Positions 3,648-45,877 of a DNA stretch of 64,000 nucleotides are shown here, one piece after another (positions within the stretch are counted from its first letter, which is position 1; each line of letters begins with the position of its first letter). The position numbers and the translations under genes are program-made. A model generated the notes under the pieces. The model saw only the letters and a program-made list of their open reading frames with translations, ran no database searches and was not told where the DNA came from. The stretch covers positions 62,001 to 126,000 of the forward strand of contig NZ_LXWK01000020.1 in NCBI RefSeq assembly GCF_001669775.1, written 5' to 3'. This DNA comes from Rheinheimera sp. SA_1 (GTDB lineage: Bacteria; Pseudomonadota; Gammaproteobacteria; Enterobacterales; Alteromonadaceae).

Positions 3648-6452
3648 CTAGGTCGTTGCACCAGTTTCCGATCCTGCGTCAGTTGACGGCTTCTTCGCCG
3701 GAACCGGCGCTATATATCCAATCAGCAGCATTAATACCCCAACCACCACAAAGGATAAAATCCGCGCCATCGAACCCTGGTCGGCCAGATCAACGGTAAA
3801 CAGCTTCGCCACCACCGCCAGCAACAACAGGCCACCACCAAGCCATAATCCGCGAAATTGACGACGGGAAGCTTGTTGCATACTCATGAGTGCCAGCAAA
3901 GTCCAGCTAATGGAAAGTGTCATCTGCACCTGCGGGTTTTGCCATAAGAATGCCAGCTGATACGGAATGTCTAACAGCCAGTGCAGACTGCGCAGCAGCA
4001 CCACGTTCAGCCAGCCGAAACTAAGCAAAGCAAGCAGCTGCAAGGCGGAATTGGTCAGTTTTTGCTGTGGTAACCAAAGGTACAATCCGAACAAACAAAC
4101 CACGGCCAGCATCAGCAGATCGGGTGCATTGAGTAGTGGCAGATACCAGGCGTTTAGCTGTGCCGGGAACATTGCAACCCAGCCACCCCAAACCAGCAGT
4201 AATGCCAGTAACGGTTTCGGCAATACCGTCTGATAATCGCGAGATTCGAAGCTTCCAGGCCAGTGTGGCTGGCGGCTTAACCAGAGCCAGCACAGAACCG
4301 GTAGCATTAACATAACAAACAGGCCATAGCTGAAAGTTAAGTCAGTCAGATGCCACAGCTCGCGCCAGCTGAACATTTGCCACAAAGCCAGAGTCACCAG
4401 CAACCAGCCGGTGGCCAGATGATAAAAACGGCGCAGTGACGAATTCATCAGCTGGCGTTGTTGGTAAAGCCAAAAGTACTGCATCAGGGCAAAACTCAGG
4501 ACTCCGGCAATTTCCGCCAGGGTCAGTGGTTGCGGTGATGCCGTGCGCAGGTGTATCAGCGCTGTGAAGGGCAGCAAGCTATGCATGGCTGTTGCCAGCA
4601 CTGGCCAGCCTTTACTCAGCTGGTAACTCAACAGGCAGCTGAGCGCGAGCAGTAAAGTGAAAGTGCCGCTGTGACTGGCAGGATCCAAATGTGTCGACAC
4701 TTCCAGCCAAAAGGCCGTCAACCACAACAACCAGCCGATGCCCCATGGAAATAGGGCGGCTTGTTGTTCGTGGCCATGGCCGTATTTTTCCAGTAAGGTC
4801 GCCATGATCAAGGCTGGTAATGCCAACAACATCAGATCAATAAAGTCGCCACTCAGCAGCGGCACTGCTCCGGCGTCGGGTAAGTCAAAGGCAAAAAAGC
4901 CGGCAAGCGCCAGTAAATAAAGCAGGTAAGCCGCCAGTCTCGACAATAAACGTTGCTGACGTAACCCAAGCCACAATAATCCGGCAGCTTCCAGCGCCCA
5001 ACTGACCGAAATCCAGTGGCCACTCAGCGCCAGTGGGATCACCAGCGTGGCGAATAACAACGCCAGCGCGATTTGGCTTTCCAGATAAAGTTGATGGGTG
5101 GCACCATTCTTTTGCCACAACTTTCGCCATACCAGGCCGGCCATACTGGCGTAAATCAGCGCCAGCAGCGCACTGCTCCAGGCCAGACCATATTCGTATG
5201 GGTCCATCAGCACCGCCTGGATGGCAAAAGCCGCCAGCGGTAAACCAAACACCAGACTGCCATCAACCAAGCCGGTTAACTTCGGCGGTTGTCGTAATGA
5301 AAACAATAACGACACTGCGAGATACAACAGGAAATAACCCAGCATAAAGGCCTGCACCACAGCATAATCTGCCGGCGAATACTGCAATACTGCCCACCCC
5401 AGGCTAATACCAAAGGTAAAAACAAAACCGGTCCAATTGAGTAACCGCCAGCTTTGAAACCAGGCTATCGTCAGAATGCCGAGATTCAGCAGCAGATAAA
5501 AACTGAATAAACCGACAAAATTATTGGAACCGTCAGAAGTTAACACCGGCACCATAAAACCACCGGCAGTAGCAAACAATGCCAGTACCTGGGCTTGTTG
5601 CCTTACCGCCAGCGCCACCCCAGCGCAGGTGATCAATAACATGCCGGCAAAAGTCTGGCCGCTGCTGAGGATCGGCGCGAATTTCATCGCGGCGAATAAC
5701 GTCAGATAACAGACCGCCAGACCACCACCTTGCAGAATTAAGCCGTAATGAAAGTTACGGTTTCTGGTGCGCCAGCCAATACCAATCAAGCCAAAGCCGG
5801 TCACGCCAATAGCACTCAGTCGCGCTTCAATCGGAAACCAGCCCTGATCCGCCAGATGCCTGATCAAAAACGCCAGCCCGAAAAACAGCACCACCATGCC
5901 AATTTTCACCACCGGATTGCCTTCACGTAGATAATTCATCGCCCAGGTCCAGATGCGGGACTGGCTTAGATCGGAAATTGCGCTTTGATCCGGAGTTATC
6001 CCAGCCGTGGGTGTTGCCAGGGATGGGGCGGATAAAGATGGCGAGAACTCAGCAGTCGAAGCAGGAACTTGCAGCGAAACATGTTGATTCGCTGCTGCCA
6101 CGGGCTCTGGCGGAAACAATAATGAAGTAACGTCGATATACTGTGGCGGGCTGCCAGTTTCGGCAAATTCAGCGGCCGCAATAGTTGGCGGCTCTTCGGA
6201 CAAACTGTTTGCTGCTGTAGAGTCGGCACTTGCAGTGATGATTGCAGCATCGGGCTGCGGTGCCGTTTGCAACGAGGTTAACTTTTGTTCTGCCTGGCTC
6301 AACCGCTTGTTTAATAACTCGAGCTTTTCTGAAAGCTGCAGCACTTTGGCCAGTAAAAATCCAAAAACGGCACCAGGCAATACCGCTTCTTCACCCACAA
6401 ACATTAGTGCCGCGGCAATACCAAGGGCGGTCAGGAGCAGGATCATCACCAA
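3648..6452 (-). CDS. DUF2339 family polytopic membrane protein
   Basis: A 934-residue inner-membrane protein. A first hydrophobic segment is followed by a short Leu/Lys/Glu coiled-coil-like stretch (about residues 35-65) and a low-complexity Ala/Pro/Thr/Ser linker to about residue 160. Then comes the DUF2339 signature around IWTWAMNYLREGNPVVKIGM and RHLADQGWFPIEARL, followed by some 20 or more closely spaced hydrophobic helices to the C-terminus. Family function is unknown. Three in-frame starts exist: TTG 6452, GTG 6449 and ATG 6446. The AAGGA upstream is about 8 bases from TTG and about 14 from ATG, so the TTG may be real. It is apparently monocistronic, with the M2 gene 161 bases downstream on the same strand. 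Confidence 0.9.
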   Translation of the reverse strand: MVMILLLTALGIAAALMFVGEEAVLPGAVFGFLLAKVLQLSEKLELLNKRLSQAEQKLTSLQTAPQPDAAIITASADSTAANSLSEEPPTIAAAEFAETGSPPQYIDVTSLLFPPEPVAAANQHVSLQVPASTAEFSPSLSAPSLATPTAGITPDQSAISDLSQSRIWTWAMNYLREGNPVVKIGMVVLFFGLAFLIRHLADQGWFPIEARLSAIGVTGFGLIGIGWRTRNRNFHYGLILQGGGLAVCYLTLFAAMKFAPILSSGQTFAGMLLITCAGVALAVRQQAQVLALFATAGGFMVPVLTSDGSNNFVGLFSFYLLLNLGILTIAWFQSWRLLNWTGFVFTFGISLGWAVLQYSPADYAVVQAFMLGYFLLYLAVSLLFSLRQPPKLTGLVDGSLVFGLPLAAFAIQAVLMDPYEYGLAWSSALLALIYASMAGLVWRKLWQKNGATHQLYLESQIALALLFATLVIPLALSGHWISVSWALEAAGLLWLGLRQQRLLSRLAAYLLYLLALAGFFAFDLPDAGAVPLLSGDFIDLMLLALPALIMATLLEKYGHGHEQQAALFPWGIGWLLWLTAFWLEVSTHLDPASHSGTFTLLLALSCLLSYQLSKGWPVLATAMHSLLPFTALIHLRTASPQPLTLAEIAGVLSFALMQYFWLYQQRQLMNSSLRRFYHLATGWLLVTLALWQMFSWRELWHLTDLTFSYGLFVMLMLPVLCWLWLSRQPHWPGSFESRDYQTVLPKPLLALLLVWGGWVAMFPAQLNAWYLPLLNAPDLLMLAVVCLFGLYLWLPQQKLTNSALQLLALLSFGWLNVVLLRSLHWLLDIPYQLAFLWQNPQVQMTLSISWTLLALMSMQQASRRQFRGLWLGGGLLLLAVVAKLFTVDLADQGSMARILSFVVVGVLMLLIGYIAPVPAKKPSTDAGSETGATT

Positions 6453-8644: not shown

Positions 8645-10065
8645 AAACCGTACTTCTCTAAACGCCGATACAGCGCACCGCGAGTCAGTCCAAGCGCTTG
8701 CGCGGTCTGGCTAATATTGCCCTGATAAAAACTCAGCGCCTGCCGAATGGTTTTTGCTTCGACTTGTTCCAGCAAAAACTCCGGACTGGCCGGTACGCTT
8801 TGTTGCTGTGCGACGACTGATTTGTCTGGATCAGAATCTGGTGCTGCTGAGGTTAAAGCCAACTGCAACTGACTAAAATCCAGCTCCGAATTCTCACTTA
8901 ACACCACGGCGCGTTCCAGCACATGCGCCAACTGGCGGACGTTGCCCGGCCAGTGATATTGGCTCAATAAATCAAGCTGCCCAGGCGTCAGCTGCAAACC
9001 GCTGCGCTGATACTGTGCTGCGTACAATTGCAGATAATACTGCGCCAGCATCGGGATATCTTCACGGCGTTGGCGCAGCGGCGGCAATACAATTTCGACT
9101 GTATTAATGCGGTACAACAAATCCTGGCGGAATAACCCTTGATCGGCGAGTTGCTGCAAGCCCTGATTGCTGGCGCAAATTAGCCTTAAATCAATAGCTT
9201 CAGCCGCAGTAGCACCTACTGAAATGACCTGGCGTTTTTGTAGTACCGTCAGTAGTTTTGCCTGATCGGCCAGTGCCAGATTGGATAATTCATCTAGGAA
9301 TAAAGTACCGCCACGCGCCTGCCGGAAGCGGCCGGGGGCATCGGTGACCGCGCCGGTAAAAGCGCCTTTTTTGTGCCCGAACAGCTCACTTTCCAGCAAA
9401 CTTGGCGTGATGCTGCCCATATCGACACAAACCAGCGACGCCTGCGCTCGCAGCGATGTCCGGTGAATAGCTTCGGCCACCAACTGCTTACCGGTGCCGC
9501 TTTCGCCGAGTAACAAGATGTTAGCGTCGGTGGCGGCAGCCTTATGGATTAGTTGCCGCACTTGTTGCATTGCCGGGCTATCACCTAACAGTGGCTGGCT
9601 TTGTCCGGAATTTAACGGGTTGGCATTGAATGCCGGGTTCGGCGCCACCTGTGCCAGCTGGAGGGCGATGATCTGGCGCAGTTGCTCGTTTTGCCAGGGC
9701 TTGGCGACAAAATCGCGGGCGCCCAGCTGCATCGCTTGCACCGCGAGGCCAACGTCAGCATAAGCAGTCATCAACACCACTTTTAAGTCCGGCTGTAGCG
9801 CTAGCGCCTGTTTCAGGTAATACAAACCTTCAGCGCCGCTGGCCGCGTCCCGACTGAAATTCATATCCAGCAGCAACACCTCAATCCGCTGTGAGCGCAA
9901 AATCGTCAACAATTCGCCCGGTTCGTTACTGGTCAATAACCGACAACCCAACGGCTTTAAACACAGTTTGCAAGCCAGCAGCAGATCGGTGTTGTCATCC
10001 AGCACTAACACCGCCGGCCGCTCCGACACTGCAAATGGTTCTGGAACTACTACAGGTGACGACAT
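8641..10065 (-). CDS. Sigma-54-dependent NtrC-family response regulator
   Basis: 474 residues in the classic three-domain order. The receiver has the acidic pair in VLVLDDNTD, the phosphoacceptor Asp in VLLLDMNFS, MTAYAD and the Lys in FVAKPWQ. The AAA+ domain has Walker A GESGTGKQ, the sigma-54 contact motif GAFTGA and Walker B GGTLFLDEL. A Fis-type helix-turn-helix at the C-terminus ends LGLTRGALYRRLEKYGL. The start at 10065 follows GGAG by eight bases; a longer frame to 10251 would run through the upstream activator sites and lacks a receiver-like extension, so it is rejected. The regulator should bind the two palindromes at 10224-10271 and activate the sigma-54 promoter at 10323 for the exporter operon. 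Confidence 0.95.
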   Translation of the reverse strand: MSSPVVVPEPFAVSERPAVLVLDDNTDLLLACKLCLKPLGCRLLTSNEPGELLTILRSQRIEVLLLDMNFSRDAASGAEGLYYLKQALALQPDLKVVLMTAYADVGLAVQAMQLGARDFVAKPWQNEQLRQIIALQLAQVAPNPAFNANPLNSGQSQPLLGDSPAMQQVRQLIHKAAATDANILLLGESGTGKQLVAEAIHRTSLRAQASLVCVDMGSITPSLLESELFGHKKGAFTGAVTDAPGRFRQARGGTLFLDELSNLALADQAKLLTVLQKRQVISVGATAAEAIDLRLICASNQGLQQLADQGLFRQDLLYRINTVEIVLPPLRQRREDIPMLAQYYLQLYAAQYQRSGLQLTPGQLDLLSQYHWPGNVRQLAHVLERAVVLSENSELDFSQLQLALTSAAPDSDPDKSVVAQQQSVPASPEFLLEQVEAKTIRQALSFYQGNISQTAQALGLTRGALYRRLEKYGL

Positions 10066-34198: not shown

Positions 34199-36799
34199 TT
34201 AGAACTTATAACTGACCTTGGCATAAACGTAACGGCCACGCGGGCTATAAATGCTGCTCACGTAACCGTACAAGTCACCGTCGCCATCACCAGCGGCAAA
34301 TGGTGGATCTTCATTCAACAGATTGCTGACCCCAACTAACAGTTTGGTTTGAGCATTCAGATTGTAATAAACCTGCGTATCAACCGTGATTTGAGAATCA
34401 ACCATCTCCGACGTTTCAGTGTCAAAATCCAGTGAACCGTCGAAATCTATGTCCGGTGTATCTTCAAACTCGCCGATGTAAGATAAAGATGCTGCCACAC
34501 CCCAATCGTTCCGGCTCCAGTCAGCTGAAGTCACCCAGCGATATTGCGGGTAACGATATTCACCAGCATAAGAGCGGTTATCTTTTTCAAATTCATCCAG
34601 ATAAGTCCATTCCAGATTAAATTTCAGCAGACCGTTATCACCGAGATCCATTTTGTAGTTCCCTGATAAATCAAGGCCCTGAGCTTCTTGTGAACTGACG
34701 TTAAAGTAACCATTGTTGATGCGGTTTAAGATCCCCAGCGTCTGACCCGCCAATGGGGTAAAGCGGATACAAATGGTGCTGTTTTGCTTACCACATTCGG
34801 CCTGATACACTTCACCAAAGGGTACTTCGTCTATCTTGTTGTCCTGGGTGATGCTCCACAAATCGACGCTGAAATCCAGATCAGGCGTGGCCTGCCACAC
34901 CATACCAACGTTCCAGCTTTCCGACTCTTCAGCTTTCAGATTTGGATTACCGGCAAACACAATGGTGTAATCGGTTGAAGCACAGGCTGGATTTGCGGCA
35001 TTGGGTGTTGGGCAGAGGAAGGTATCAATAAAAAATTGAGATTCCTGTGATGGCCCTAAACCAATTTGTGCCAGTGACGGTGCCCGGAAACCCTGGCTCC
35101 AGGATGCGCGCAGCGACACAGTGTCGGTCGGGGTGTAGTGCAAGGCGATTTTTGGATTGGCAGTGCCGCCAAAATCGCTGTAATGGTCGTAACGTTCGGC
35201 CAGTTGCAACTCAAGGTTTTCCAGTACCGGTACTGACAGTTCGATATACGCTGCTTTTTGTGAGCGCGATGCAGCTGCTGAGACCGATTCCGTACCAAAA
35301 ATAAGTCCGCGTGTGAACTGGTCATCCGGCGTATCACGTGCATCTTCTTTGCGGTATTCCACACCAGCCGCCAGGCCAACAGCACCGGTTTCCAGCTGGA
35401 ATAGTTCGCCACCAATATGTGCATCGATCGACGTCAGATGCGACTTACCACGACGCACCAAGCTGGTGGTAATGGCATCAATAACCGATTGAGGGTTTTG
35501 CACGCCACCAAATGGGTTATAGCGACCGGCATTAATTTCGGTTTGTAAAAAGTCGGTTCTGACCCAGCCCTGATCCCGTTCACCGGTCTGAGTCGCTGCG
35601 CTGCGACCTTTTTGTGCTGCAGCTTCCCATTCCCAGTTGTTAAAATTACCGCGAATACCTGCTAACAACCGCAAGGTGTCTGAGGTAATGTCCCAGCGAC
35701 GGTTACCGGCATCAACAGTACGATAACGACCTATTTTGATGTCCTTTTTCCACGGGTTATTTGGGTGCGAACCCGGTACTGTCAGGCCAGCGCCTTCATC
35801 CAGAGGTGTCGCTGCACCGCCGGCAGTTGAGGTATTGTGCTGAACGGCGATTTCAGAAAATATCTCAATATCACCATCCAGTTTACGGCTTAAGTTTAAG
35901 ATAGCGCCAAGCCGTTCAGCTGCCGGAATGGCGATGGATGCCGGGCCATAATCATACAAACACGTCTGGCCGGCAATGCTGTCGGCCGGACAACCTGGAT
36001 CCCGAAGCGTTACACCATCAACAATAAAGCGACCGGGATAACCCCGTGAAGAACGCAGGTCCTGACCACCGTAAACGGATTGGTTGGCAGTGCCAAAGCG
36101 GCCCAGCTCTGAGTTATCAATTTGGCCGTTGTTAAAATAATCCAGAATTAAGGTGGCGTTACTTTTATCATCACCTGTGCCCCAGACGGTGCTGAGGGTG
36201 GTTTCGTCATATCCAGGGCCGGTAGCAGAGCCATAACCTAATGACACATCGGTGCCGGTATAGTCTTTGCGTAGCACCACGTTGACAACACCAGCCACAG
36301 CGTCTGAGCCGTAAATTGCCGATGCACCGTCTTTCAGAATATCAACCCGTTCAATGGCGGCAACCGGAATGCTGTTGATATCAACAAACGAATTGACGAT
36401 GCCTTCAGCAAAAGCACTGGTCGCCACACGGCGGCCGTTGATGAGCACTAAAGTCGCGTCAGCGCCAAAACCACGTAAGCTGATGGCTGCGGCACCATTG
36501 GCGGTTGAATCCTGGCTGTTACCGCGGGTGGAGAAAGTGCCCGCACCGGTTGCTGGCAAGCGTTCCAGCAATTGTTGTAAGTTATCAAAACCAGATTTAT
36601 CAATCATATCGCGATTGATGACGGTCACCGGCGACGGTCCTTCCATATCTGTGCGTTTAATATGAGAGCCGGTGACCTGCATCCGTTCGACGGCTTTTTC
36701 TTCGGCGGGTGGGGTAGCCTGCGCCAGAACGGCGCTGCTGCAAAGAATGGTACTGACGGCAAAAGCGCAACGATGTAGTTTCGATCTAATGTGTTTCAT
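34199..36799 (-). CDS. TonB-dependent outer-membrane receptor (866 aa)
   Basis: AGGA precedes the ATG at 36799 by about six bases. A signal peptide (MKHIRSKLHRCAFAVSTILCSSAVLAQA) leads to ERMQVTGSHIKRTDMEGPSP, the TonB-box/plug entry, with plug motifs GFDNLQQLLERLP and GASAIYGSDAVAGVVNVVL. The barrel includes GGVEYRKEDARD-type strands and ends YVYAKVSYKF, the proper terminal aromatic. By style it belongs to the large Xanthomonas/Alteromonas receptor group that takes up peptides or glycans. The S9 peptidase lipoprotein is divergent 326 bases away, so oligopeptides are a reasonable substrate guess (inference). Confidence 0.93.
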   Translation of the reverse strand: MKHIRSKLHRCAFAVSTILCSSAVLAQATPPAEEKAVERMQVTGSHIKRTDMEGPSPVTVINRDMIDKSGFDNLQQLLERLPATGAGTFSTRGNSQDSTANGAAAISLRGFGADATLVLINGRRVATSAFAEGIVNSFVDINSIPVAAIERVDILKDGASAIYGSDAVAGVVNVVLRKDYTGTDVSLGYGSATGPGYDETTLSTVWGTGDDKSNATLILDYFNNGQIDNSELGRFGTANQSVYGGQDLRSSRGYPGRFIVDGVTLRDPGCPADSIAGQTCLYDYGPASIAIPAAERLGAILNLSRKLDGDIEIFSEIAVQHNTSTAGGAATPLDEGAGLTVPGSHPNNPWKKDIKIGRYRTVDAGNRRWDITSDTLRLLAGIRGNFNNWEWEAAAQKGRSAATQTGERDQGWVRTDFLQTEINAGRYNPFGGVQNPQSVIDAITTSLVRRGKSHLTSIDAHIGGELFQLETGAVGLAAGVEYRKEDARDTPDDQFTRGLIFGTESVSAAASRSQKAAYIELSVPVLENLELQLAERYDHYSDFGGTANPKIALHYTPTDTVSLRASWSQGFRAPSLAQIGLGPSQESQFFIDTFLCPTPNAANPACASTDYTIVFAGNPNLKAEESESWNVGMVWQATPDLDFSVDLWSITQDNKIDEVPFGEVYQAECGKQNSTICIRFTPLAGQTLGILNRINNGYFNVSSQEAQGLDLSGNYKMDLGDNGLLKFNLEWTYLDEFEKDNRSYAGEYRYPQYRWVTSADWSRNDWGVAASLSYIGEFEDTPDIDFDGSLDFDTETSEMVDSQITVDTQVYYNLNAQTKLLVGVSNLLNEDPPFAAGDGDGDLYGYVSSIYSPRGRYVYAKVSYKF

Positions 36800-37125
36800 A
36801 GCAATCCTTTTGTAACCTGGGAATATTGTTTTTTTAGTGTTACCTGCCGTTATCCGGCCGTTTACCTATAGTACAAAACTGCCGCTTTCGTCGGATTACA
36901 GCCGAAACTTTGCATAATTTTTTTTCATGCATCCTCTGAAGCAGCGATTTCCAGGGTTTTTGAAATATATTTTTACAAATCAACGGTTTTACCGTAGTAA
37001 TTTCATGGTTAGCTTGCACGTTGCTTGAATTTTAATCAGTGACGTTTTACTTTCGTCAGGGAACGGGCTGAGTCGTCAGCGTTGCAGTGGATAATTTCAT
37101 TTACATAAAGGCAGAAGGAATTCGA
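36800..37125. other. Divergent promoter region without clear operator
   Basis: 326 bases between the TonB receptor and S9 peptidase starts. AT-rich (T-runs at 36829-36836 and 36919-36926). It must hold both promoters. No convincing palindrome or coding content was found. Confidence 0.5.
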
Positions 37126-39084
37126 ATGAAAAGTTACCAGGTACAGAGAACCAGATCTTCGGTGATATTGCTCAGTTTATTGACCGTCTCTATCCTTGCA
37201 GGTTGCGAGAAGGCCACAGCACCAGCTGAACCAGCCGCTGCCGCCGTCGTTACTGCAGAACCGACGACTACCAAAGCTGCGGTATTTGCCAACTATAGCG
37301 CTGAGCAGTTTTATGCCACCAGGTCGTATCAGGGCAGCGCGATTAATCATAACGGCCAGTCGTTACTGGTGGCTTCTGATGAAACCGGCGTGTTTAATTT
37401 GTACCGCGTGAGTCTCGATGGCAAAAGTTGGCAACCGCTGACCACATCGACCACTGACGCCATATTGCCCGTGGACTGGTTTCCAAAAGACGATAGAGTG
37501 TTATATACCGCTGATCAGGGCGGCAATGAACTCCATCATCTGTATGTGCTTGAAGCTGATGGCAAAGTGGTTGATTTAACCCCAGGTGACAAACTCAAAG
37601 CGATGTTTGGCGGCTGGCTGGGTGATACGGCGTTTTTTGTGATGAGCAACGAGCGCGACCCAAAATTTTTCGATTTGTATCAGTACGACGCTAAAACCTA
37701 CGCCCGCACCCTGGTGTATCAAAACAAAGAAGGTTTTGAAGTGGCGGCGATCAGCGACGATGGCCGTTATCTGGCGCTGAGTAAAGAACGCACCAATGCT
37801 GACAACAACCTGTATTTACTTGATTTACAAGATCCAACTAAAACCCCGCTGCATATCACTCCCCATGATGGCAATGTCACTTTTACCGCCCATGGTTTTA
37901 GCCGTGATGGCAAACAGCTGATTTTTGGCTCGGATCAAAGTTCGGAATTCAGTCAGGCTTTCAGTTATGACCTGGCCAGCAAGCAAAGTGTGGTGTACCA
38001 GCAGGCCGACTGGGATATCAGCTACATCGGTTTTAGCAAAGATAACAAATACAAGGTGACAGCCGTTAACGCTGATGCTTCGACCAAAATTCAAATCACC
38101 GACCAAAACACTGGCCAGCCACTGCAATTACCCAAGTTACCGGACGGCGATTTACGCGGCATCAGCTTTTCGGCCGACAGTCAGTATTTAAGCTTTTACG
38201 TCAATGCCGACAACAGTCCGTCTAATTTATACGTCTGGAAAATTGGTGATGCCAGCGCCAACCGGTTAACTCAGGCGCTCGACAGCAATATCAACGAAAA
38301 CAATCTGGTGATGAGCGAAGTGGTGCGTTTTGCCAGCTTTGACGGGGTGCAAATTCCAGCCTTGTTGTACCAGCCAAAACAAGCCAGCGCCAATAGCCGC
38401 GTACCGGCAGTGATTTGGATCCACGGCGGCCCGGGCGGCCAATCCCGCACCGGTTACAATCCGGTGATCCAACATCTGGTGAATCAGGGGTATGCGGTGT
38501 TGGCGGTGAATAACCGTGGCTCTACCGGTTATGGCAAAACCTTTTTCCACCTGGACGATTTAAAACACGGTGAAGATGATTTGCAGGACATTGTGTATGG
38601 CAAAAAGTATCTGCAATCGCTGAACTGGGTCGCCACAGACCGTATTGGCGTGATGGGCGGCAGTTACGGTGGTTATCTGACGATGGCGGCGATGGCCTTT
38701 ACTGACGAATTTAAACTGGGCATCAATATTTTCGGTGTAACCAACTGGGTACGGACTTTGGAAAGTATTCCACCATGGTGGGAATCGTTCCGGGAGTCTT
38801 TGTATGCAGAACTTGGCGATCCGGCCAAAGACGGGGAACGCCTGCGCCGTATTTCGCCGTTATTCCATGGCGACAAAGTGAAAAAGCCGGTGCTGGTGGT
38901 ACAAGGTGCCAACGATCCAAGGGTATTACAGGTAGAAAGTGATGAAATGGTCGCAGCTATTAAGAAAAATGGCGTGCCGGTGGAATATGTATTGTTTCCG
39001 GATGAAGGCCATGGTTTTGTCAAAAAAGCCAACCGCATCACCGCGCAAAATGCCTATTTAGCCTTTTTGCAGAAGTATTTGTAA
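37126..39084 (+). CDS. S9-family serine peptidase (prolyl oligopeptidase-like) lipoprotein
   Basis: 652 residues. Lipoprotein signal with lipobox ILAGC (about residue 25), then a seven-bladed beta-propeller (about 55-390; repeats such as SFSADSQYLSFYV) and an alpha/beta-hydrolase domain. The catalytic Ser is in GGSYGGY (S513), the Asp in GANDPRVLQ and the His in DEGHGF near the C-terminus; the oxyanion region is IHGGPGGQ. It should release dipeptides or short peptides, often after proline, at the periplasmic face. AAGGAA is five bases before ATG 37126; an earlier in-frame ATG (37087) would bury the signal. A strong terminator follows. The divergent TonB receptor may import its products or substrates. 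Confidence 0.93.
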   Translation: MKSYQVQRTRSSVILLSLLTVSILAGCEKATAPAEPAAAAVVTAEPTTTKAAVFANYSAEQFYATRSYQGSAINHNGQSLLVASDETGVFNLYRVSLDGKSWQPLTTSTTDAILPVDWFPKDDRVLYTADQGGNELHHLYVLEADGKVVDLTPGDKLKAMFGGWLGDTAFFVMSNERDPKFFDLYQYDAKTYARTLVYQNKEGFEVAAISDDGRYLALSKERTNADNNLYLLDLQDPTKTPLHITPHDGNVTFTAHGFSRDGKQLIFGSDQSSEFSQAFSYDLASKQSVVYQQADWDISYIGFSKDNKYKVTAVNADASTKIQITDQNTGQPLQLPKLPDGDLRGISFSADSQYLSFYVNADNSPSNLYVWKIGDASANRLTQALDSNINENNLVMSEVVRFASFDGVQIPALLYQPKQASANSRVPAVIWIHGGPGGQSRTGYNPVIQHLVNQGYAVLAVNNRGSTGYGKTFFHLDDLKHGEDDLQDIVYGKKYLQSLNWVATDRIGVMGGSYGGYLTMAAMAFTDEFKLGINIFGVTNWVRTLESIPPWWESFRESLYAELGDPAKDGERLRRISPLFHGDKVKKPVLVVQGANDPRVLQVESDEMVAAIKKNGVPVEYVLFPDEGHGFVKKANRITAQNAYLAFLQKYL

Positions 39085-39223: not shown

Positions 39224-39724
39224 ATGTCTGCCAAAACGCCAAAAACTGCTTTGCCTTTGACTTCCGCCATGGAGCCGCTGTCTGCCGACCGTTTACAAGC
39301 TTTACATCTGGATCAGCAGCTGTGCTTTGCGATGTATTCAACCTCCTTGTTGATGACCAAAATTTACAAGCCAATGTTAGACCAACTGGGTCTGACATAC
39401 CCGCAATACCTGGTGATGCTGATTTTGTGGGAAAAAGATGGCCTGGCGCTGAAAGATATCGGCGAGCAATTACATATTGATTCCGGCGCCTTAACGCCGG
39501 TGATTAAACGAATGGAAGCGCAGGGCTTGTTAACCCGTCGCCGCCAGCCGGATAACGAACGGACGTTAGAAATTTGCCTGACCCCAGCTGGCTGGGCGTT
39601 GCGACCAGCAGCCAGTGAGGTCAATCGGAATCTCGGCATGAAATGTGGGATGGCCGAGCCGGACATTATTGCGCTGCGTCAACAGCTTATTGCGCTGCGT
39701 AGCAGTTTGCAGCGCGCTTTGTAA
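39224..39724 (+). CDS. ohrR: MarR-family regulator, OhrR-like (166 aa)
   Basis: A winged-helix repressor resembling organic-peroxide sensors. The segment LDQQLCFAMYSTSLLMTKIYKP carries the N-terminal reactive Cys of OhrR in its usual context (QLCFAMYS), with the conserved LGLTYPQYLVMLILWE following. The DNA-binding part is DIGEQLHIDSGALTPVIKRMEAQGL and the wing RRRQPDNERTLEICLT. One further Cys (MKCGMAE), near the C-terminus, could serve as the resolving residue. The usual target gene ohr is not adjacent, so the target is unknown. The start at 39224 gives an N-terminal tail longer than usual; the internal ATG at codon 16 (MEPLSADR) is an alternative. Convergent with the M9-like gene (4 bases between stops). 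Confidence 0.82.
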   Translation: MSAKTPKTALPLTSAMEPLSADRLQALHLDQQLCFAMYSTSLLMTKIYKPMLDQLGLTYPQYLVMLILWEKDGLALKDIGEQLHIDSGALTPVIKRMEAQGLLTRRRQPDNERTLEICLTPAGWALRPAASEVNRNLGMKCGMAEPDIIALRQQLIALRSSLQRAL

Positions 39725-39728
39725 CAGC

Positions 39729-40712
39729 TTAATTTGCGCTATATTTGCCATTGTTAACAGGCTGAAGCGCGGTTTTTCCGGCGCTGGCCTGCTGCGTCAG
39801 CCACTGACTAAATTCCTGATCCATCGACGTACCCCAGCTGCGCACCAGCGCCTGATACCTGGGGTAGTCGCCATTGCGTAGCAATTTCAGCATCCCATCA
39901 ACTTTCGGGCGTTGTTGCTCCAGCAAATAACGAGCAGCCAGATAACCCCAGCGATAAATCCGATCACTGCCATGATTGCGCTCATAACCTGTATGAAACA
40001 GTTCACTCAGTTTAAATTGCTGGGTGGCCGCCAGTTTCAGCGCTTCCTGATTCTCTGTGCCATGCGCCACGTACTCGGCCATGCCTTCGGTCCACCAGAC
40101 TAAATAAGGGGTGTCGGGCGCCGGGGTCGGACAGTTTTCCGGTGGCGCATGCGAGTCGTGTAAAGTGGCACAAAAATCACCGTATAAATTAAAACGACCA
40201 TCCAGATAGTGCACAAATTCATGGCTTAAATTCCAGACCTGGCCTTGCTCACGCTGGTAAGCAACAAATTCAGCCTGATTGCCTGGCTGATCAGGAAAAC
40301 CTTCCAGATACATACCACCATTGTCGGTCGGCATTTGAAAATGCTGGCCAGCAAATTCAACATACTGCTGTTTTGACTGATAAATATTGGCGCGCAGCAT
40401 GGTGTTATGATCATGCCTCACCGCTTTACCAGCACTTTGAAATAACTGATGGAAACGTTGCTCAATGGCGGCAAGTTGCGCGCAGGCCGCCTGTTGCTGC
40501 GCCGGAGTCAGTGCTGCCGAGCGAAGCGTCAGGCTGGCGCTGCATTGGTGCTGCTGACTGAGGATTTGATCCACACTCGCCATTTTTGTGTTGTCGGCCG
40601 GATTGGCATTGGCGATGTTACAAATAACCAAGCTGCTCATCAGCAAACTGCTTTTTAGCCAACGGTTTCGTTGCAACCGTTGAAGCGCAATTAAAAATGT
40701 CATCTTCGTCAT
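39729..40712 (-). CDS. Collagenase-like M9 metallopeptidase, catalytic domain only
   Basis: 327 residues, exported (signal of about 36 residues ending ICNIANA). The zinc motif HEFVHYLDGRF (H164, E165, H168) and the downstream EGMAEYVAHG (third-ligand Glu) are those of M9 (Vibrio/Clostridium collagenase) catalytic domains. Typical M9 enzymes are 700-1000 residues with an activator domain before and PKD/PPC or collagen-binding domains after; all are absent. It may therefore cleave gelatin or soluble peptides rather than native fibrils. Two cysteines (DFCATLHDS, PENCPTP) could form a disulfide. AGGAG precedes ATG 40712. The gene is divergent from the hydroxyproline/peptide operon across a 122-base gap holding a palindrome, so joint control is likely. 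Confidence 0.85.
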   Translation of the reverse strand: MTKMTFLIALQRLQRNRWLKSSLLMSSLVICNIANANPADNTKMASVDQILSQQHQCSASLTLRSAALTPAQQQAACAQLAAIEQRFHQLFQSAGKAVRHDHNTMLRANIYQSKQQYVEFAGQHFQMPTDNGGMYLEGFPDQPGNQAEFVAYQREQGQVWNLSHEFVHYLDGRFNLYGDFCATLHDSHAPPENCPTPAPDTPYLVWWTEGMAEYVAHGTENQEALKLAATQQFKLSELFHTGYERNHGSDRIYRWGYLAARYLLEQQRPKVDGMLKLLRNGDYPRYQALVRSWGTSMDQEFSQWLTQQASAGKTALQPVNNGKYSAN

Positions 40713-40747
40713 AAATTCTCCTGAAACTGTTTACTTTCAATTCAAAT

Positions 40748-40763
40748 ATATTGTATACAATAT
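40748..40763. promoter_or_regulatory. 16-bp palindrome ATATTGTATACAATAT (GntR-type operator-like)
   Basis: A perfect palindrome in the 122-base divergent gap between the M9-like gene and the hydroxyproline dehydratase operon. The core TTGTATACAA matches the style of GntR/FadR(FCD)-family operators, which commonly control hydroxyproline and amino-acid catabolism. No GntR gene is in the window. Its placement lets one regulator control both directions. Confidence 0.6.
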
Positions 40764-40834
40764 TCTATATCAAGAATTTTCCTTGTGCGCAGGACACGAA
40801 ACCGTGCCAGTACCAAGCCGGAACAGAAGGTTAA

Positions 40835-41965
40835 ATGCAAAGCTATCAGCGATTTACACAGTGGCAACCGCCGCTCGATAACAAGACAATGCCACCAACC
40901 ACTGCTTTAGAAATCCGCACCTTGGATTGTCACACCGGTGGCGAACCGCTGCGCATCATTACGGCTGGTTTTCCGGAACTTAGGGGTGATTCGGTGCTGG
41001 CAAAACGGCGTGATTGTCAGCAGCGTTTTGATGGGTTGCGCCGGGCGTTGATGTGGGAGCCGCGTGGCCATGCCGATATGTACGGCTGCATTATTGTGCC
41101 GCCAGAACGCGCCGACAGTGCGTTTGGGGTGATTTTTCTGCATAACGAAGGCTATAGCACCATGTGCGGTCACGCGATGATTGCGCTGGCCAAAGTTGCG
41201 ATTGAAGCCGGCGTAGTACCGATGACGGAGCCTGTTACTGCTTTTGCAGTGGATGCGCCTTGTGGCCAGATCCGGTTATTTGCAGAGGTAAAGCAAGGTC
41301 AGGTGCAGCACTGCTGGTTTCACAATGTGCCCTCTTTTGTGGTGGCGACGGATCAACGCCTGTATCTGTCAGGGATTGGTGAACTGACCTACACCCTCGC
41401 TTATGGCGGCGCTTTTTATGCTTATGTCGATGCTGCCAGTATTGGCTTATCGCTTGAGGCGCAAAACCACCGGCAAATTATTGAACTGGGTCAGCGAATT
41501 AAGCTGGCGCTTTCGCAGCAACTTGAGATTCAGCACCCGTTCGAGCCTGATTTAAACTTTTTATACGGCACTATATTTACTGGCGCACCGCTTTTTGCAG
41601 GCGATGCACATAATTCAGCCAATGCAAACCGTCCGCTAAGTCCAAACAATCCAGCCAGTCCAACAGCCGCCATGCGCAACGTCTGTGTGTTTGCCGATGG
41701 TGAGCTAGACAGAAGTCCTACCGGCAGTGGTGTGTCGGGTCTTGCCGCCATTTTGCAGCAGCAAGGCAAGCTGGCGCTCGGGCAAACGCTGGTGATCGAA
41801 AGTATTCTCGGCTCGCAGTTTCAATTATCCATAGTTGAATTAGTGCAGTACGGCCGTTATCCGGCGGTGATCCCGCGGGTGCAAGGCCAGGCTAATGTCA
41901 CCGGGCGCCACCAGTTTTATCTTGATCCCCAAGATCCATTTGCAGAAGGATTTATCTTCCGATGA
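40835..41965 (+). CDS. trans-3-hydroxy-L-proline dehydratase (proline racemase family)
   Basis: 376 residues, cytosolic. The first catalytic residue is Cys111 in NEGYSTMCGHAM; the second position, Cys in racemases and 4-hydroxyproline epimerases, is Thr296 in DRSPTGSGVSG. The Cys-Thr pair marks trans-3-hydroxy-L-proline dehydratase, which makes pyrroline-2-carboxylate. The substrate-side motif DCHTGGEPLRII is intact. AAGG is four bases before ATG 40835; the internal ATG at codon 19 has no ribosome site, so a slightly long N-terminus is accepted. The stop overlaps the next gene (ATGA, 41962-41965). The following reductase-like gene (43133) would convert the product to proline, which strongly supports the call. 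Confidence 0.88.
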   Translation: MQSYQRFTQWQPPLDNKTMPPTTALEIRTLDCHTGGEPLRIITAGFPELRGDSVLAKRRDCQQRFDGLRRALMWEPRGHADMYGCIIVPPERADSAFGVIFLHNEGYSTMCGHAMIALAKVAIEAGVVPMTEPVTAFAVDAPCGQIRLFAEVKQGQVQHCWFHNVPSFVVATDQRLYLSGIGELTYTLAYGGAFYAYVDAASIGLSLEAQNHRQIIELGQRIKLALSQQLEIQHPFEPDLNFLYGTIFTGAPLFAGDAHNSANANRPLSPNNPASPTAAMRNVCVFADGELDRSPTGSGVSGLAAILQQQGKLALGQTLVIESILGSQFQLSIVELVQYGRYPAVIPRVQGQANVTGRHQFYLDPQDPFAEGFIFR

Positions 41966-43095
41966 ACACAGGAATTCCGATGCTGGCACCGTTGCAGCCA
42001 CAGTTTGCCAATCGCCTTGCCGCATTTCGGCAGGCGATGCAACAAGCCAATCAACAGGCGGCGCTGATTTTTGGCGCTGAGAATTTACGTTATCTGGTGA
42101 ACTACGCCGGTGAAGCGGCTTGTGTGGTATTGACCCAGCACAGCGTGGCTTTGATCACCGATTACCGTTTTGAAGCACAGGCGCGGCAGGAATGCGCAGT
42201 GGCGCAAAATGGCTGCCGGGTGATTTGTCGGGATCGTGATCAGCAACGTCTTGGCGAAGCACTGGCGCTGGAGTTCGCGGCGCAGCAGGTGAGTCGTGTC
42301 TGGTATGAAGCTGAGTCTGTGAGTGTGCAGCAATGGCAACTGTTGCAACAGGATCTGTCAGCTGTGCAATGTAGCCCTTGTCCACCGGTGCTCACCAGTT
42401 TGCGAATCGTCAAAGACGATTGGGAAGTGGTGCAAATTCAGCGCGCGGCGCAGATAGCCGATGCCGCTTTAGCCCAAACCTTGCCGCTGTTGCAGCCGGG
42501 GATCACCGAGATTGATTTTGCCACAGAACTTGAATACCGGCTGAAAAAGCTGGGTGCTGAAGCCTTGTCCTTTGCCACTATTGTTGGTTTTGGTGCACGT
42601 TCAGCGTTGCCGCATGCTTTGCCTGGTACGCAGCGACTGAAAAAAGGCGACTTAATCCTGATTGATTTTGGCGCTGTGGTAAATGGTTATCGCAGCGATA
42701 TGACCCGCAGTTATGTTGCCGGCAAAGCTGATTTATTGCAGTTACAGCTGTTTCAGGCGGTACAGCAGGCGCAGCAGGCCGCATTAAAAGCAGTCAAAGC
42801 CGGGATTTCAGCCAGTGCGTTATTTGCTATTTCCGATCAGGTGTTACAACGCTCTGAATTTGGCCGTTATGCCGGGCCGGGTCTTGGTCATGGCGTCGGG
42901 TTGCAGTTGCACGAACAACCCTTTTTAAGTCCCGGCAACGAGCTGAAATTACCAGCCGGTGCCGTGATCACTATCGAGCCAGGTGTGTATCTGCCCAATT
43001 ATGGCGGGGTGCGGCTGGAAGATGATGTGCTGGTGACCGCGCATGGTTATCTGCAGCTGACCAAAGCACCGACGCAGTTTGCGCTGGAATGCTAA
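41962..43095 (+). CDS. M24-family Xaa-Pro peptidase (377 aa)
   Basis: A cytosolic metallopeptidase of the aminopeptidase P/prolidase group. An N-terminal creatinase-like domain (about residues 8-140) is followed by the pita-bread domain with the five metal ligands in place: two Asp in LIDFGAVVNGYRSDMTRSY, His in GPGLGHGVGLQLHEQP, Glu in TIEPGVYLP and Glu in GVRLEDDVLV. It removes the residue before proline from dipeptides or longer peptides, releasing proline-rich products. It is coupled to the dehydratase gene by a four-base overlap. In this context it should process collagen-type Xaa-Pro or Xaa-Hyp peptides brought in by the POT carrier. Confidence 0.92.
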   Translation: MNTGIPMLAPLQPQFANRLAAFRQAMQQANQQAALIFGAENLRYLVNYAGEAACVVLTQHSVALITDYRFEAQARQECAVAQNGCRVICRDRDQQRLGEALALEFAAQQVSRVWYEAESVSVQQWQLLQQDLSAVQCSPCPPVLTSLRIVKDDWEVVQIQRAAQIADAALAQTLPLLQPGITEIDFATELEYRLKKLGAEALSFATIVGFGARSALPHALPGTQRLKKGDLILIDFGAVVNGYRSDMTRSYVAGKADLLQLQLFQAVQQAQQAALKAVKAGISASALFAISDQVLQRSEFGRYAGPGLGHGVGLQLHEQPFLSPGNELKLPAGAVITIEPGVYLPNYGGVRLEDDVLVTAHGYLQLTKAPTQFALEC

Positions 43096-43132
43096 GCCGC
43101 ACCTGCTCCTTTTATTTTTAGAGACGTACGCA

Positions 43133-44074
43133 ATGCAAATTATCAGCGCACAACAAGTGGATCAAGTACTGGATTTCCCATTGTTGATCAATGCTTTACA
43201 ACAAGGTTTTGCCAAAGAGTTCACCATGCCGGCAAGGCAGGTTTGGCCACTGACGCCGGGCAGCCCTGAAGCGTTTGCATTATTGCCAGCCTGGAATGAG
43301 CAGGTGATCGCAGTAAAAGCCTTTAGCTATTTTCCGGATAATGCTGAGCTGCAATTGCCCACTTTACACGCCAGTATTTTGTTGTACCGGCGTGATAACG
43401 GCGTGCCGCTGGCCTGGGTCGAAGGCAGCAGCGTGACGTGCTGGCGCACCGCCGCAGTATCGGCGTTGGCGTCCCGTTATCTGGCGCGGCCGGATTCCCG
43501 CACCCTGCTGTTACTCGGTAGTGGCCGCCTGGCGTTACCACTCATTCAGGCACATCTGGCCGAACATGATTTACAAACTTTATTGCTGTGGGGGCGTAAT
43601 CAGGCGGCAGCGCGCCAACTCTGCCACAGGGTGCAGCAGTTATATCCGCGGCTGCAAGTCCAGGTGGTGCAGGAGATTAACGAGGCTTGTCAGCAGGCCG
43701 ACATCATCGTCGCTGCCACCGGCTCGCCGACGCCGCTGTTATTTGGCAACCATATTCCGCCAGGCTGTCATGTCGATTTGCTCGGCAATCACAGCCCGCA
43801 GCAGCGTGAATGTGACACTGAGTTAGTACGGCGCGCTTCGGTGTATGTCGATGATCGCAATAATGTGCTGAATGAAGCGGGCGAGCTGTTGATCCCAATC
43901 GCCGAGCAACAGTTTTCCGCCAACGACATTCGCGCCGAACTGGCCGAGCTGTGCCGCCGCAATCTGCCAGCACGGCAACATCGTGATGAAATCACCTTGT
44001 TTAAGTCGGTGGGTACGGCGCTTAGTGATTTGCTTTGCGCCGAATTGGTGTTGCAGCGCCCCTACTTCAACTAG
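43133..44074 (+). CDS. Ornithine cyclodeaminase family; likely pyrroline-2-carboxylate reductase
   Basis: 313 residues. The substrate-side Lys is in VIAVKAFSYFPDN, and the NAD(P)-binding Rossmann motif is LLLLGSGRLALPLIQAHL (about residues 122-139) with VAATGSPTPLL. DLLGNHSPQQRECD replaces the usual GSF/Asp block of true ornithine cyclodeaminases. Family members next to trans-3-hydroxyproline dehydratase genes are known to reduce pyrroline-2-carboxylate to L-proline, so context decides the call. A longer frame begins inside the previous gene; ATG 43133 is preferred for the conserved MQIISAQQVDQVLDF start, with only a weak GAGA ribosome site. Third gene of the operon. Confidence 0.85.
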   Translation: MQIISAQQVDQVLDFPLLINALQQGFAKEFTMPARQVWPLTPGSPEAFALLPAWNEQVIAVKAFSYFPDNAELQLPTLHASILLYRRDNGVPLAWVEGSSVTCWRTAAVSALASRYLARPDSRTLLLLGSGRLALPLIQAHLAEHDLQTLLLWGRNQAAARQLCHRVQQLYPRLQVQVVQEINEACQQADIIVAATGSPTPLLFGNHIPPGCHVDLLGNHSPQQRECDTELVRRASVYVDDRNNVLNEAGELLIPIAEQQFSANDIRAELAELCRRNLPARQHRDEITLFKSVGTALSDLLCAELVLQRPYFN

Positions 44075-44098
44075 TTAAAAAAACTCAGAGAAAAACCT

Positions 44099-45877
44099 AT
44101 GAGCTCAGTCCGACGCAGCCCCTTTCCGGCGACTTTTTATGTCGCCAATACCATGGAAATATTCGAACGACTGGCCTGGTACGGCTTTTTCAGTTTGTCC
44201 TCTTTGTATATGACCAGCCCAACAAGCCATGGTGGTCTTGGTTTTAGCGATCAGGAACGGGGCTTTTTGCAAGGTATGATCCCGTTTTTGCTGTATTTAC
44301 TGCCGGTGCTGACCGGCGCGCTGGCTGATCGCTATGGTTATCGGCGGATGTTTTTATGCTCTTTTGCGCTGATGGCGCCGTCTTATTATCTGCTGGGACA
44401 AGTCGAGAGCTTTTGGGCATTTTTTATGGCCTTTACCGCAGTGGCGGTTGGTGCGGCCTGTTTTAAACCGGTGGTGGTGGGCACCGTTGGCCGCTGCAGC
44501 GACGACAGTAATCGCGGGCTGGCGTTTGGGATTTTTTACACCATGGTCAATATCGGCGGTTTTGTCGGGCCATTGGTCGCCGGGTATTTGCGGGCGATCA
44601 GCTGGGACTGGGTGTTTGTAATGTCGTCATTGTGGATTTTAATCAATTTTATTCCGGCGTTATTTTGGTACCGCGATCCGGTGGTTAATACCTCGGATCA
44701 ACGCACCGTGCGCCAGGTGCTGCAGGAAATGCAGCAGGTGCTGGGTAACGGACGGCTGGCGCTCTTGGTGTTGCCGTTATTATTGGGGTTGATGTTCAGC
44801 CCACGCTTTGCCATCAGTTGGTGGCAGATGTTGTTAGTCGCTGGTCTGTGGATTGGCCTGAATCTGGGCTGGAGTTACGGCCTGCGCCTGGCGAAAAGTC
44901 TGCATTCGAACGGCAACTCCGGGCAAATCTTAGCTTGGTATCAGCAGCAAATGCAGCTGGGTAACGGCCGTTTTGTCTGCTTTTTGCTGCTGCTCACCGG
45001 CTTTTTTACTGCGTACAATCAGTTATTTATCACCTTGCCGGTGTATTTACGCGATTACGTCGACACCCGTGATTTGGTGCAAAGCCTGGCGGCCTGGTCG
45101 CCAACGTTGCTGGACTATTTTGCGGCGGTCAATATTCCACAACTGGCGGCCGCTTTACCTGCTCTGGCCATCCAGTTTGGCACTTTAGAGCCTGCACAGT
45201 GGCAAAGTCTGGTGTTGGAACTGGCGCATCACAAAATTTTGCTGCCGCCTGACGAGATGGCTGCTGGTTTACAGGCTTTACTACAGCAGCAACTAAGCGC
45301 CGAACAACTGGCCAGCCAGTGGGCCGCTGAATACCGGCAGATTAACCCGGAATATATTGTTAACCTTGGTTTTGCCACGATAGTGCTGGCGCAGATTGCT
45401 ATCAGTACTTTTATTGAGCGCTGGCCGGCGATACCGGTGCTGGTGGTCGGCACTGTGGTGATGGCCGCTGGTTTGCTGGGCTGTGGACTGTCCGGCATGT
45501 TGCTGGTTGGCGGCGTAACGATCGTCGGTGCTGTCGTGGTATTTTCCTGTGGTGAAATGATTGCGTCGCCAAAAAGTCAGGAATATGTCGCGGCTATAGC
45601 ACCGCGCCATCAGACGGCGATGTATATGGGCTATTACTTTGTGGCGATGGCGCTGGGCAATTTATTTGCCGGATTATTATCAGGTTTTGCCTACACCGTC
45701 ATTGCCAAACAAATGAACCAGCCGCTGTTGATGTGGGTTTTGTTCGCTGGTATCGCACTACTGACTGCCGCTGGTATGTTGATATTTCACTACTGGGTGC
45801 AGCGGCAGCCGTTGCCGGTAAAGCTTGATGTTGCAAAGACCAATGCGACTGAGGTTAACGGCGAGTGTTTAACCTGA
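44099..45877 (+). CDS. POT-family proton-coupled oligopeptide transporter (592 aa)
   Basis: An inner-membrane major-facilitator carrier for di- and tripeptides. The proton-coupling motif of the family is visible as EIFERLAWYGFF (ExxER) in TM1, and GALADRYGYRR and FKPVVVGTVGRCSDDSNRGLAFGIFYTMVNIGG are classical POT signatures. It has about 14 helices with a long interdomain insert (roughly residues 330-420, including AAWSPTLLDYFAAVNIPQ and Gln-rich helices), larger than in the E. coli Dtp proteins (about 500 residues). It is 24 bases behind the reductase gene, so it belongs to the operon and likely imports the proline- and hydroxyproline-containing peptides used by its partners. Confidence 0.9.
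   Translation: MSSVRRSPFPATFYVANTMEIFERLAWYGFFSLSSLYMTSPTSHGGLGFSDQERGFLQGMIPFLLYLLPVLTGALADRYGYRRMFLCSFALMAPSYYLLGQVESFWAFFMAFTAVAVGAACFKPVVVGTVGRCSDDSNRGLAFGIFYTMVNIGGFVGPLVAGYLRAISWDWVFVMSSLWILINFIPALFWYRDPVVNTSDQRTVRQVLQEMQQVLGNGRLALLVLPLLLGLMFSPRFAISWWQMLLVAGLWIGLNLGWSYGLRLAKSLHSNGNSGQILAWYQQQMQLGNGRFVCFLLLLTGFFTAYNQLFITLPVYLRDYVDTRDLVQSLAAWSPTLLDYFAAVNIPQLAAALPALAIQFGTLEPAQWQSLVLELAHHKILLPPDEMAAGLQALLQQQLSAEQLASQWAAEYRQINPEYIVNLGFATIVLAQIAISTFIERWPAIPVLVVGTVVMAAGLLGCGLSGMLLVGGVTIVGAVVVFSCGEMIASPKSQEYVAAIAPRHQTAMYMGYYFVAMALGNLFAGLLSGFAYTVIAKQMNQPLLMWVLFAGIALLTAAGMLIFHYWVQRQPLPVKLDVAKTNATEVNGECLT

Follow-up and report, generated by a model that had tools for sequence, protein, structure and literature searches.

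Four published systems come closest to the one considered here, a five-gene module of Rheinheimera sp. SA_1 that probably serves the use of collagen peptides and hydroxyproline (Hyp); what is said of these and of the other cited papers refers to the portions of their text that were available. The HypR regulon predicted in Alteromonadales, mostly in Shewanella (Leyn et al. 2016, PMC5343134), resembles the present system in its GntR-type HypR, its trans-4-hydroxyproline (4-Hyp) operon, its secreted collagenases (colA1-3), YpdF and other proline peptidases, a proline di/tripeptide permease, a TonB transporter and COG2423 genes; the likeness is one of gene content and does not extend to a comparison of operators. 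In Streptomyces coelicolor, HypR was found by experiment to repress Hyp catabolism and the M9 collagenase SCO5912 (PMC6608401). The 21-kb collagen cluster of Colwellia BB5 (Borchert et al. 2021, PMC7883544) shares an M9 collagenase, an MFS carrier, YpdF, an OCD-family enzyme and a protein annotated as an epimerase. Finally, the known pairs of trans-3-hydroxyproline (3-Hyp) dehydratase and Delta1-pyrroline-2-carboxylate reductase (t3HypD/Pyr2C reductase; Zhao et al. 2014, PMC4113996) likewise consist of a Thr-bearing proline-racemase homologue and an OCD-family reductase, and one such cluster, in a species of Bacilli, has peptidase and transporter families as neighbours.

The window, that is, the whole stretch of 64,000 nucleotides analyzed (G000:C20:62001-126000), belongs to a genome of 5.16 Mb. 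At positions 39729 to 45877 it holds a gene for a short M9 peptidase (M9s), divergent from an operon for a dehydratase-type enzyme, an M24 peptidase, an OCD-family reductase and a POT-type carrier. These five genes are confirmed as a real module. It is probably the 3-hydroxyproline/peptide arm of the HypR collagen regulon, on the strength of a palindrome shared with the other M9 genes and the hyp operon of the genome, of its co-occurrence with HypR, and of its frequency before M9 genes.

Gene set and conservation of the layout

All the open reading frames (ORFs) of the module were found where the first-pass annotation had placed them, and Pfam confirmed the families of the five genes. M9s, a stand-alone M9 peptidase domain (PF01752) of 327 amino acids (aa) with a signal-like N-terminus and no M9N activator domain, is encoded on the minus strand (39729..40712). 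On the plus strand there follow the dehydratase-type proline-racemase homologue (40835..41965; Pro_racemase, PF05544), with a Cys/Thr pair, an M24 Xaa-Pro aminopeptidase/prolidase similar to YpdF and PepQ (41962..43095; Creatinase_N and Peptidase_M24), a Delta1-pyrroline-2-carboxylate reductase of the OCD/mu-crystallin family (43133..44074; OCD_Mu_crystall and NF004793), and a POT-type MFS peptide carrier of 592 aa (44099..45877; MFS_1 and PTR2). The dehydratase and M24 genes overlap by 4 bases, and the remaining gaps of the operon are of 37 and 24 bases.

The co-conservation of the M9-like gene with the operon, anticipated by the first-pass annotation, was borne out by a neighbourhood comparison. 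A dehydratase scan of named genomes supplied the loci, of which the best 80 of at least 566 were compared; this is not a census, and in 3 of the 80 (L122, L142 and L171) ORF calling gave no reference match at all. The full order, M9s on one strand and dehydratase-M24-OCD-POT on the other, was present in 5/80 loci: L103 (Rheinheimera riviphila), L104 (Rheinheimera sp.), L105 (a metagenome-assembled genome, MAG, of Oxalobacteraceae), L106 (Undibacterium macrobrachii) and L107 (U. flavidum). The nearest among the named loci fetched was L103, with 79-97% protein identity over the 13 neighbouring genes compared. Altogether, M9s lay near the dehydratase in 9/80 loci. The four additional cases were L120, with M9s and the dehydratase followed by the contig end; L115 (Pelomonas), with M9s beside one long ORF across the dehydratase and M24 positions and then OCD; L117, with M9s, a second M24 gene and then dehydratase-M24-POT; and L132 (Thalassomonas), with POT-dehydratase-M24-OCD convergent with M9s. 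The order POT-dehydratase-M24-OCD was also seen in the Colwellia loci L126 (POT in two ORFs), L178 and L180, with a long M9 in L126 and L178. The carrier was found in 13 of the 80 loci, a close M24 in 19 and at least one 4-Hyp gene match in 22, while 33 had no reference match besides the dehydratase with or without the OCD gene. The long ORF of L115 (Pelomonas sp. BJYL3, L115:10162-12180) codes for 672 aa with M24 as its best match, and a dehydratase-M24 fusion is possible there.

A second sample comprised 147 genomes from the family of the window. M9s-type proteins were taken as the 12 best M9 rows by genome (E ≤ 3.3e-77, frames of 308-360 aa), and dehydratase-type enzymes were set by our own cut at the gap between E 8.1e-68 and 1.4e-58. 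Any M9 occurred in 45 of these genomes, a dehydratase-type enzyme in 34, the carrier in 21 and M9s-type proteins in 12; cassette genes adjoined M9s in 7 of the latter, and in one more (G083) M9s and cassette halves stop at contig ends in matching orientations. Every one of the 21 genomes with carrier relatives (E < 1e-100) had an M9, 19 of them a dehydratase-type enzyme and 19 HypR. Since the same five genes recur in the same order in other genera, and since the carrier genomes all have M9 and mostly the dehydratase, the set can be said to be more than a chance arrangement.

The palindrome and the HypR regulon

The intergenic letters between the two divergent genes contain, at 40750..40761, a perfect palindrome, ATTGTATACAAT, which is predicted to be an HypR operator. 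With at most one mismatch, TATTGTATACAATA was found at 5 sites of the whole genome, sites with two mismatches being left out as evidence, and 4 of these precede the three M9 genes and the hyp operon. The sites of the two other M9 genes lie 106 and 87 bases upstream of them, and that of the 4-Hyp operon lies between hypO and hypDEH, with ATTGTATACAAT occurring at both the cassette and the hyp operon. The latter encodes, after HypE, a 219-aa GntR/FCD protein (L069 12826-13485) which by position and family appears to be HypR; hypE scored over its NCBI cut-off, and hypO, hypD and hypH were named from Pfam class (DAO, DHDPS and aldehyde dehydrogenase) and position. TTGT..ACAA agrees with the FadR-subfamily consensus TKGT/ACMA quoted in PMC6608401, and the HypR protein contains an FCD domain. 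The fifth site (L090, G000:C1:530748-530761), with one mismatch, is just upstream of a gene for a 317-aa AraC-like regulator, its family judged by eye, which is a possible further regulon member.

Over the 147 genomes, exact palindromes numbered 214, compared to 15 of a reversed control pattern, and 184 of the 214 were in the 66 genomes with HypR. Palindrome and HypR occurred together in 59 genomes, the palindrome only in 16, HypR only in 7 and neither in 65 (Fisher p 3e-18); as the sampled genomes are related, such p-values overstate independence and the numbers are to be read as strength of association. Concerning the M9 promoters, 92 rows with E ≤ 2.6e-35 were considered, leaving out a frame of G079 with a stop (in range) and all weaker rows; the start was the first ATG after a stop, and two rows without an identifiable start were dropped, giving 90 genes. 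The palindrome with at most one mismatch was found from -400 to +60 of 47/90, an exact match in 16/90, while 59 control palindromes of the same composition reached at most 2/90; in HypR genomes the count was 45/79. Among 75 listed palindrome sites, 30 had a match to M9, proline racemase, POT or HypR no more than 6 kb away.

The palindrome is also conserved in L103, L104 and L120. Twenty stretches were fetched, 6 from the genome of the window and 14 (L074-L087) from relatives; the genomes of these 14 were chosen by hand, and the layouts found in them serve as illustrations rather than as a sample. In 12 of the 14, the palindrome with at most one mismatch stands before a cassette or M9 gene, the others being L081, where a contig end truncates M9s, and L083, where an M9s lies away from the cassette. 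Because the operators are shared, it is probable that the M9 gene and the operon are under joint control. A promoter-like match for the M9 gene, TTGATA-17-TATATT (40745..40773, minus strand), overlaps the palindrome; it is a consensus match alone, and the consensus scan gave 4 promoter-like matches in the region compared to 6.6 expected by chance, the numbers from the terminator and promoter scans of the region not being above chance.

A local regulator other than HypR could be encoded by the MarR/OhrR-type gene at 39224-39724, the palindrome then belonging to MarR or to a third factor. Only 4 bases separate this gene from the end of M9s, and its product scored 145.6 bits on the OhrR model, under the cut-off of 200. 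However, it was present in only 3/80 loci (L103, L120 and, at 40% identity, L112) and absent from L104, which keeps the palindrome; moreover, the same palindrome recurs upstream of distant M9 genes as well as within the HypR operon, and it tracks HypR over the 147 genomes. Control by the MarR-type protein is thus quite improbable, and HypR is retained as the likely regulator.

The encoded proteins and the neighbouring genes

Residues 15-304 of the 327 of M9s match PF01752 (E 8.6e-77, 258.7 bits versus a cut-off of 26), with no further family in Pfam; the N-terminal activator domain PF08453 (M9N) was not found in M9s by Pfam, while both other M9 genes of the genome have it, one of them together with a PPC domain. 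An alignment of the window protein with 29 relatives, hand-picked from 120 listed ones, showed the zinc site, H164-E165-H168 of the HExxH motif plus the downstream E209, to be invariant in 30/30 sequences. Equally invariant were C181 and C194. They belong to an insert that sits between HExxH and the third zinc ligand; neither of the two long M9 of the genome has it. A database search restricted to proteins of 0.55-1.75 times the length of M9s gave 333 relatives at E ≤ 1e-10. Rheinheimera, Undibacterium, Paucibacter, Roseateles, Massilia, Shewanella and Ferrimonas are among the names represented. The 120 listed were all of 258-357 aa; the pattern C-x(2-4)-HD-x-H-xx-PE-x-C was matched by 118 of them and a strict pattern for both zinc-site motifs by 108. 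So, M9s looks like the representative of a distinct stand-alone M9 subfamily. A signal-like N-terminus, judged by eye, suggests that it is exported; a lipobox-like motif in the first 40 residues occurs in 26 of the 120 listed relatives and was not found in M9s of the window. In genome G124 the M9s gene is split over two frames (L079:7573-8481), so it is frameshifted or misassembled.

The structure model of M9s (mean predicted local distance difference test score, pLDDT, 80.8) had as best PDB matches VhaC, of Vibrio, and the Grimontia collagenase (Ghcol), with root-mean-square deviations of 1.8-2.2 and 39% identity over the matched parts. This close match to their peptidase domains, together with the intact zinc site, could indicate a true collagenase attacking triple-helical collagen alone or with an activator domain in trans. 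The activator domain, which in ColG unwinds collagen, has been described as a single-domain triple helicase, with the implication that in vitro it can work for a separate peptidase domain acting on a collagen mimic (PMC11032491). Against this stand the absence of M9N from M9s and the behaviour of the VhaC peptidase domain, which as a fusion devoid of the activator domain kept about 70% of its activity on Pz-peptide but was inactive on triple-helical peptide and collagen fibres (PMC8799719). A collagenase role of this kind is therefore considered unlikely. By analogy with the VhaC and ColG domain results, it seems reasonable to interpret that the long M9 would open collagen while M9s would trim the chains to tripeptides. 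For the stand-alone subfamily, peptide trimming is the likely role instead of an attack on collagen, so the label "collagenase" may overstate its collagen-degrading ability.

The protein encoded at 40835-41965 matches Pro_racemase (E 6.3e-103, 344.7 bits versus a cut-off of 27) and carries Cys111 and Thr296, a Cys/Thr pair shared by all 13 homologues aligned. The Thr form was present in 30/30 of the loci of best dehydratase matches (L008-L037), in 9 of which a Cys form was also nearby, and the best PDB match, 6r76, has the same Thr. In characterised trans-3-Hyp dehydratases Thr replaces the second Cys, and OCD-family neighbours reduce the product to proline (PMC4113996). The OCD stretch of the window matches OCD_Mu_crystall with E 7.5e-53; the queries (43124-44074) held three extra codons, the first ATG being at 43133. 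The protein passes the cut-off for pyrroline-2-carboxylate reductase (NF004793, 384.2 bits versus 322), and its next match in the genome has 34% identity. It would follow that the dehydratase-type protein acts on trans-3-hydroxy-L-proline.

Published naming offers another interpretation, namely that the operon serves 4-Hyp and ornithine, and not 3-Hyp, by means of an alternative 4-Hyp epimerase and an ornithine cyclodeaminase/Delta1-pyrroline-5-carboxylate (P5C) reductase (P5CR). In the HypR regulon paper COG2423 is taken for ornithine cyclodeaminase, and hypY appears as an alternative epimerase (PMC5343134); the Colwellia cluster paper names an epimerase and a P5CR/ornithine cyclodeaminase (PMC7883544). 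This interpretation presumes that the proteins of both papers are orthologues of those of the window. However, Thr replaces the second catalytic Cys throughout the aligned homologues and loci just mentioned, while the HypE paralogue of the genome, the 4-Hyp epimerase proper, is Cys/Cys and sits in its own operon, and the OCD protein reached only 118.1 bits on the ornithine cyclodeaminase model NF005762 (cut-off 350) besides passing that of the reductase. There is hence little probability that the pair is an epimerase and a cyclodeaminase, and the 3-Hyp assignment is preferred.

The M24 protein matches PF00557 (E 1.3e-61) and is under the NCBIfam cut-offs for PepQ (198.7/630) and for the PRK09795 aminopeptidase (191.2/393), which we take to be YpdF. 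A second M24 gene elsewhere in the genome (L275, G000:C12:328414-329625), with no palindrome within 2 mismatches nearby, encodes a protein 60% identical to the M24 beside M9s in G095. The carrier scored 41.4 bits on PTR2 (PF00854, cut-off 27) and higher, 121.8, on MFS_1; it appears to be a divergent POT relative, with a predicted function in peptide transport. Its counterpart in R. riviphila (L103:13252-14781) has 509 aa instead of 592, being devoid of an internal stretch (about residues 225-290) and resuming near a repeated LGNG motif.

Just upstream of the module the first-pass annotation had set an S9 peptidase (37087-39084) and a TonB receptor (34199-36799). Both genes are real, but the inclusion of either, or of the MarR gene, in the module was rejected as unsupported: close copies beside the module were found only in L103 (all of them) and L120 (S9 and MarR), the other Rheinheimera locus, L104, had neither S9 nor TonB, and no palindrome within 2 mismatches was found near the three window genes. 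Distant TonB-type genes (25-30% identity) occur near other copies (L106, L109-L111 and L178) and distant S9-type genes (21-27% identity) in the cassette loci L107 and L132. An exact palindrome stands 106 bases upstream (about 4978-5084) of a gene of TonB-receptor type in L178, from a Colwellia MAG; this gene is 25% identical to the TonB receptor of the window. Some receptor may thus belong to the module or, in L178, to the regulon.

Role of the module and comparison with known systems

On the established genes, families, active-site residues, conserved layouts and shared palindrome with its co-occurrence with HypR, we consider it likely that the module is an HypR-controlled arm of a collagen-utilisation regulon handling collagen peptides and 3-hydroxyproline; the substrates, the direction of transport, the export and cellular place of M9s, and binding and repression by HypR are inferred. 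Collagen would be unwound and cut by the two long M9 collagenases, presumably secreted, whose genes lie on C12 and C16, and M9s, without an unwinding domain, would trim the released or denatured chains to Gly-X-Y pieces. Tripeptides are of the size that POT carriers take, and the POT-type carrier would import di- and tripeptides. The M24 enzyme, with others encoded elsewhere, would take off the residue preceding Pro or Hyp. Free trans-3-hydroxy-L-proline would then be dehydrated to Delta1-pyrroline-2-carboxylate and reduced to L-proline, whereas trans-4-hydroxyproline would go via the separate hypO/hypDEH operon. HypR, as a GntR/FCD repressor, would bind the palindrome and keep both divergent promoters shut until hydroxyproline appears. 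The first-pass interpretation is thus partly supported. The peptide/3-Hyp module stands, but the "full route from collagen-type peptides to proline" that it proposed is unsupported, because M9s has the peptidase domain alone, M9 with activator domains being encoded elsewhere in the genome; moreover, the dehydratase-reductase pair would serve 3-Hyp, a minor residue of collagen, and 4-Hyp has its own operon.

Several observations weigh against this assignment. As for the proteins, the dehydratase-type enzyme is under both NCBIfam dehydratase cut-offs (NF045511, 359.1/540; NF047722, 231.4/550), hence the name "dehydratase-type", and the carrier is under that of the oligopeptide:H+ symporters (TIGR00924, 73.7/130.2 bits). 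The dehydratase-type protein of the window also has an insertion of about 20 residues near residues 253-277, between its two parts, that is absent from the G083 protein. As for the layout, M9s is apart from the cassette in 4 of the 12 M9s genomes. As for the regulation, no HypR was detected in 16 genomes with the palindrome and 7 show the reverse, 43/90 M9 promoters are without the palindrome, 2 of 11 M9 promoters in genomes without HypR have it (both in G048), no match to M9, proline racemase, POT or HypR lies near 45 of the 75 listed sites, and the relatedness of the genomes bears on the p-values as said above. In addition, a search upstream of the dehydratase in Burkholderiales loci of identical or similar gene order gave no ATTGTATACAAT; the module is thus not under HypR in all bacteria, and that of the Burkholderiales must be controlled in some other way. 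In L108 (Roseateles) and L115, a conserved stretch with TTTCAGAAT and TTTCTGAAA precedes the dehydratase genes at about 9900-9970, possibly a different operator.

A more specific proposal can be made only tentatively. The tripeptide Gly-3Hyp-4Hyp, which comes from collagen, shows exceptional resistance to plasma peptidases, and 3-Hyp is a minor collagen residue (PMC9166765). This tripeptide would fit the cassette, which ends in a 3-Hyp pathway and shares its operator with a 4-Hyp pathway. It is conceivable, though rather doubtful, that the cassette is dedicated to scavenging it, with release at the envelope by M9s, whose two-cysteine insert lies beside the active site, import by this POT subfamily, opening by M24 and HypR-controlled 3-Hyp and 4-Hyp branches, and that the module moved as a unit between Alteromonadales-type bacteria and Burkholderiales with a change of regulator.

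Concerning novelty, the first-pass annotation named dehydratase-reductase pairs and collagenase loci as known, but not the exact combined layout. The exact five-gene layout is indeed absent from the available text of PMC5343134 and PMC7883544, but its kind has precedent there, and on the basis of these papers and PMC6608401 the kind of system is already known. The available text on the HypR regulon of Leyn et al. names no 3-Hyp dehydratase, assigns COG2423 to ornithine degradation, lists an "alternative 4-Hyp epimerase" and does not mention a stand-alone M9 or the five-gene layout (PMC5343134). The S. coelicolor regulon differs in its DNA motif, has no 3-Hyp arm in the text available, and its SCO5912 has M9N, PKD and PPC domains (PMC6608401). 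For the Colwellia BB5 cluster no 3-Hyp step is proposed in the corresponding portion (PMC7883544); in the Colwellia loci studied here, M9 where present (L126 and L178) is long and not M9s, and hyp genes adjoin the cassette in L178 and L180. The account of the t3HypD pairs, as far as available, mentions no collagenase or collagen regulon, nor the word "Colwellia" (PMC4113996).

Neither the 3-Hyp reading of the dehydratase-OCD pair nor a stand-alone M9 in this layout was found in the accessible portions of PMC5343134, PMC6608401 and PMC7883544, and a literature search, thin on subscription journals, gave no paper beyond those cited on a layout with a 3-Hyp dehydratase. The arrangement and its 3-hydroxyproline branch seem, therefore, under-described. 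To the HypR collagen regulon, whose published accounts read the OCD-family enzyme as part of ornithine/P5C metabolism (PMC5343134, PMC7883544), the present comparison would add a 3-hydroxyproline branch.

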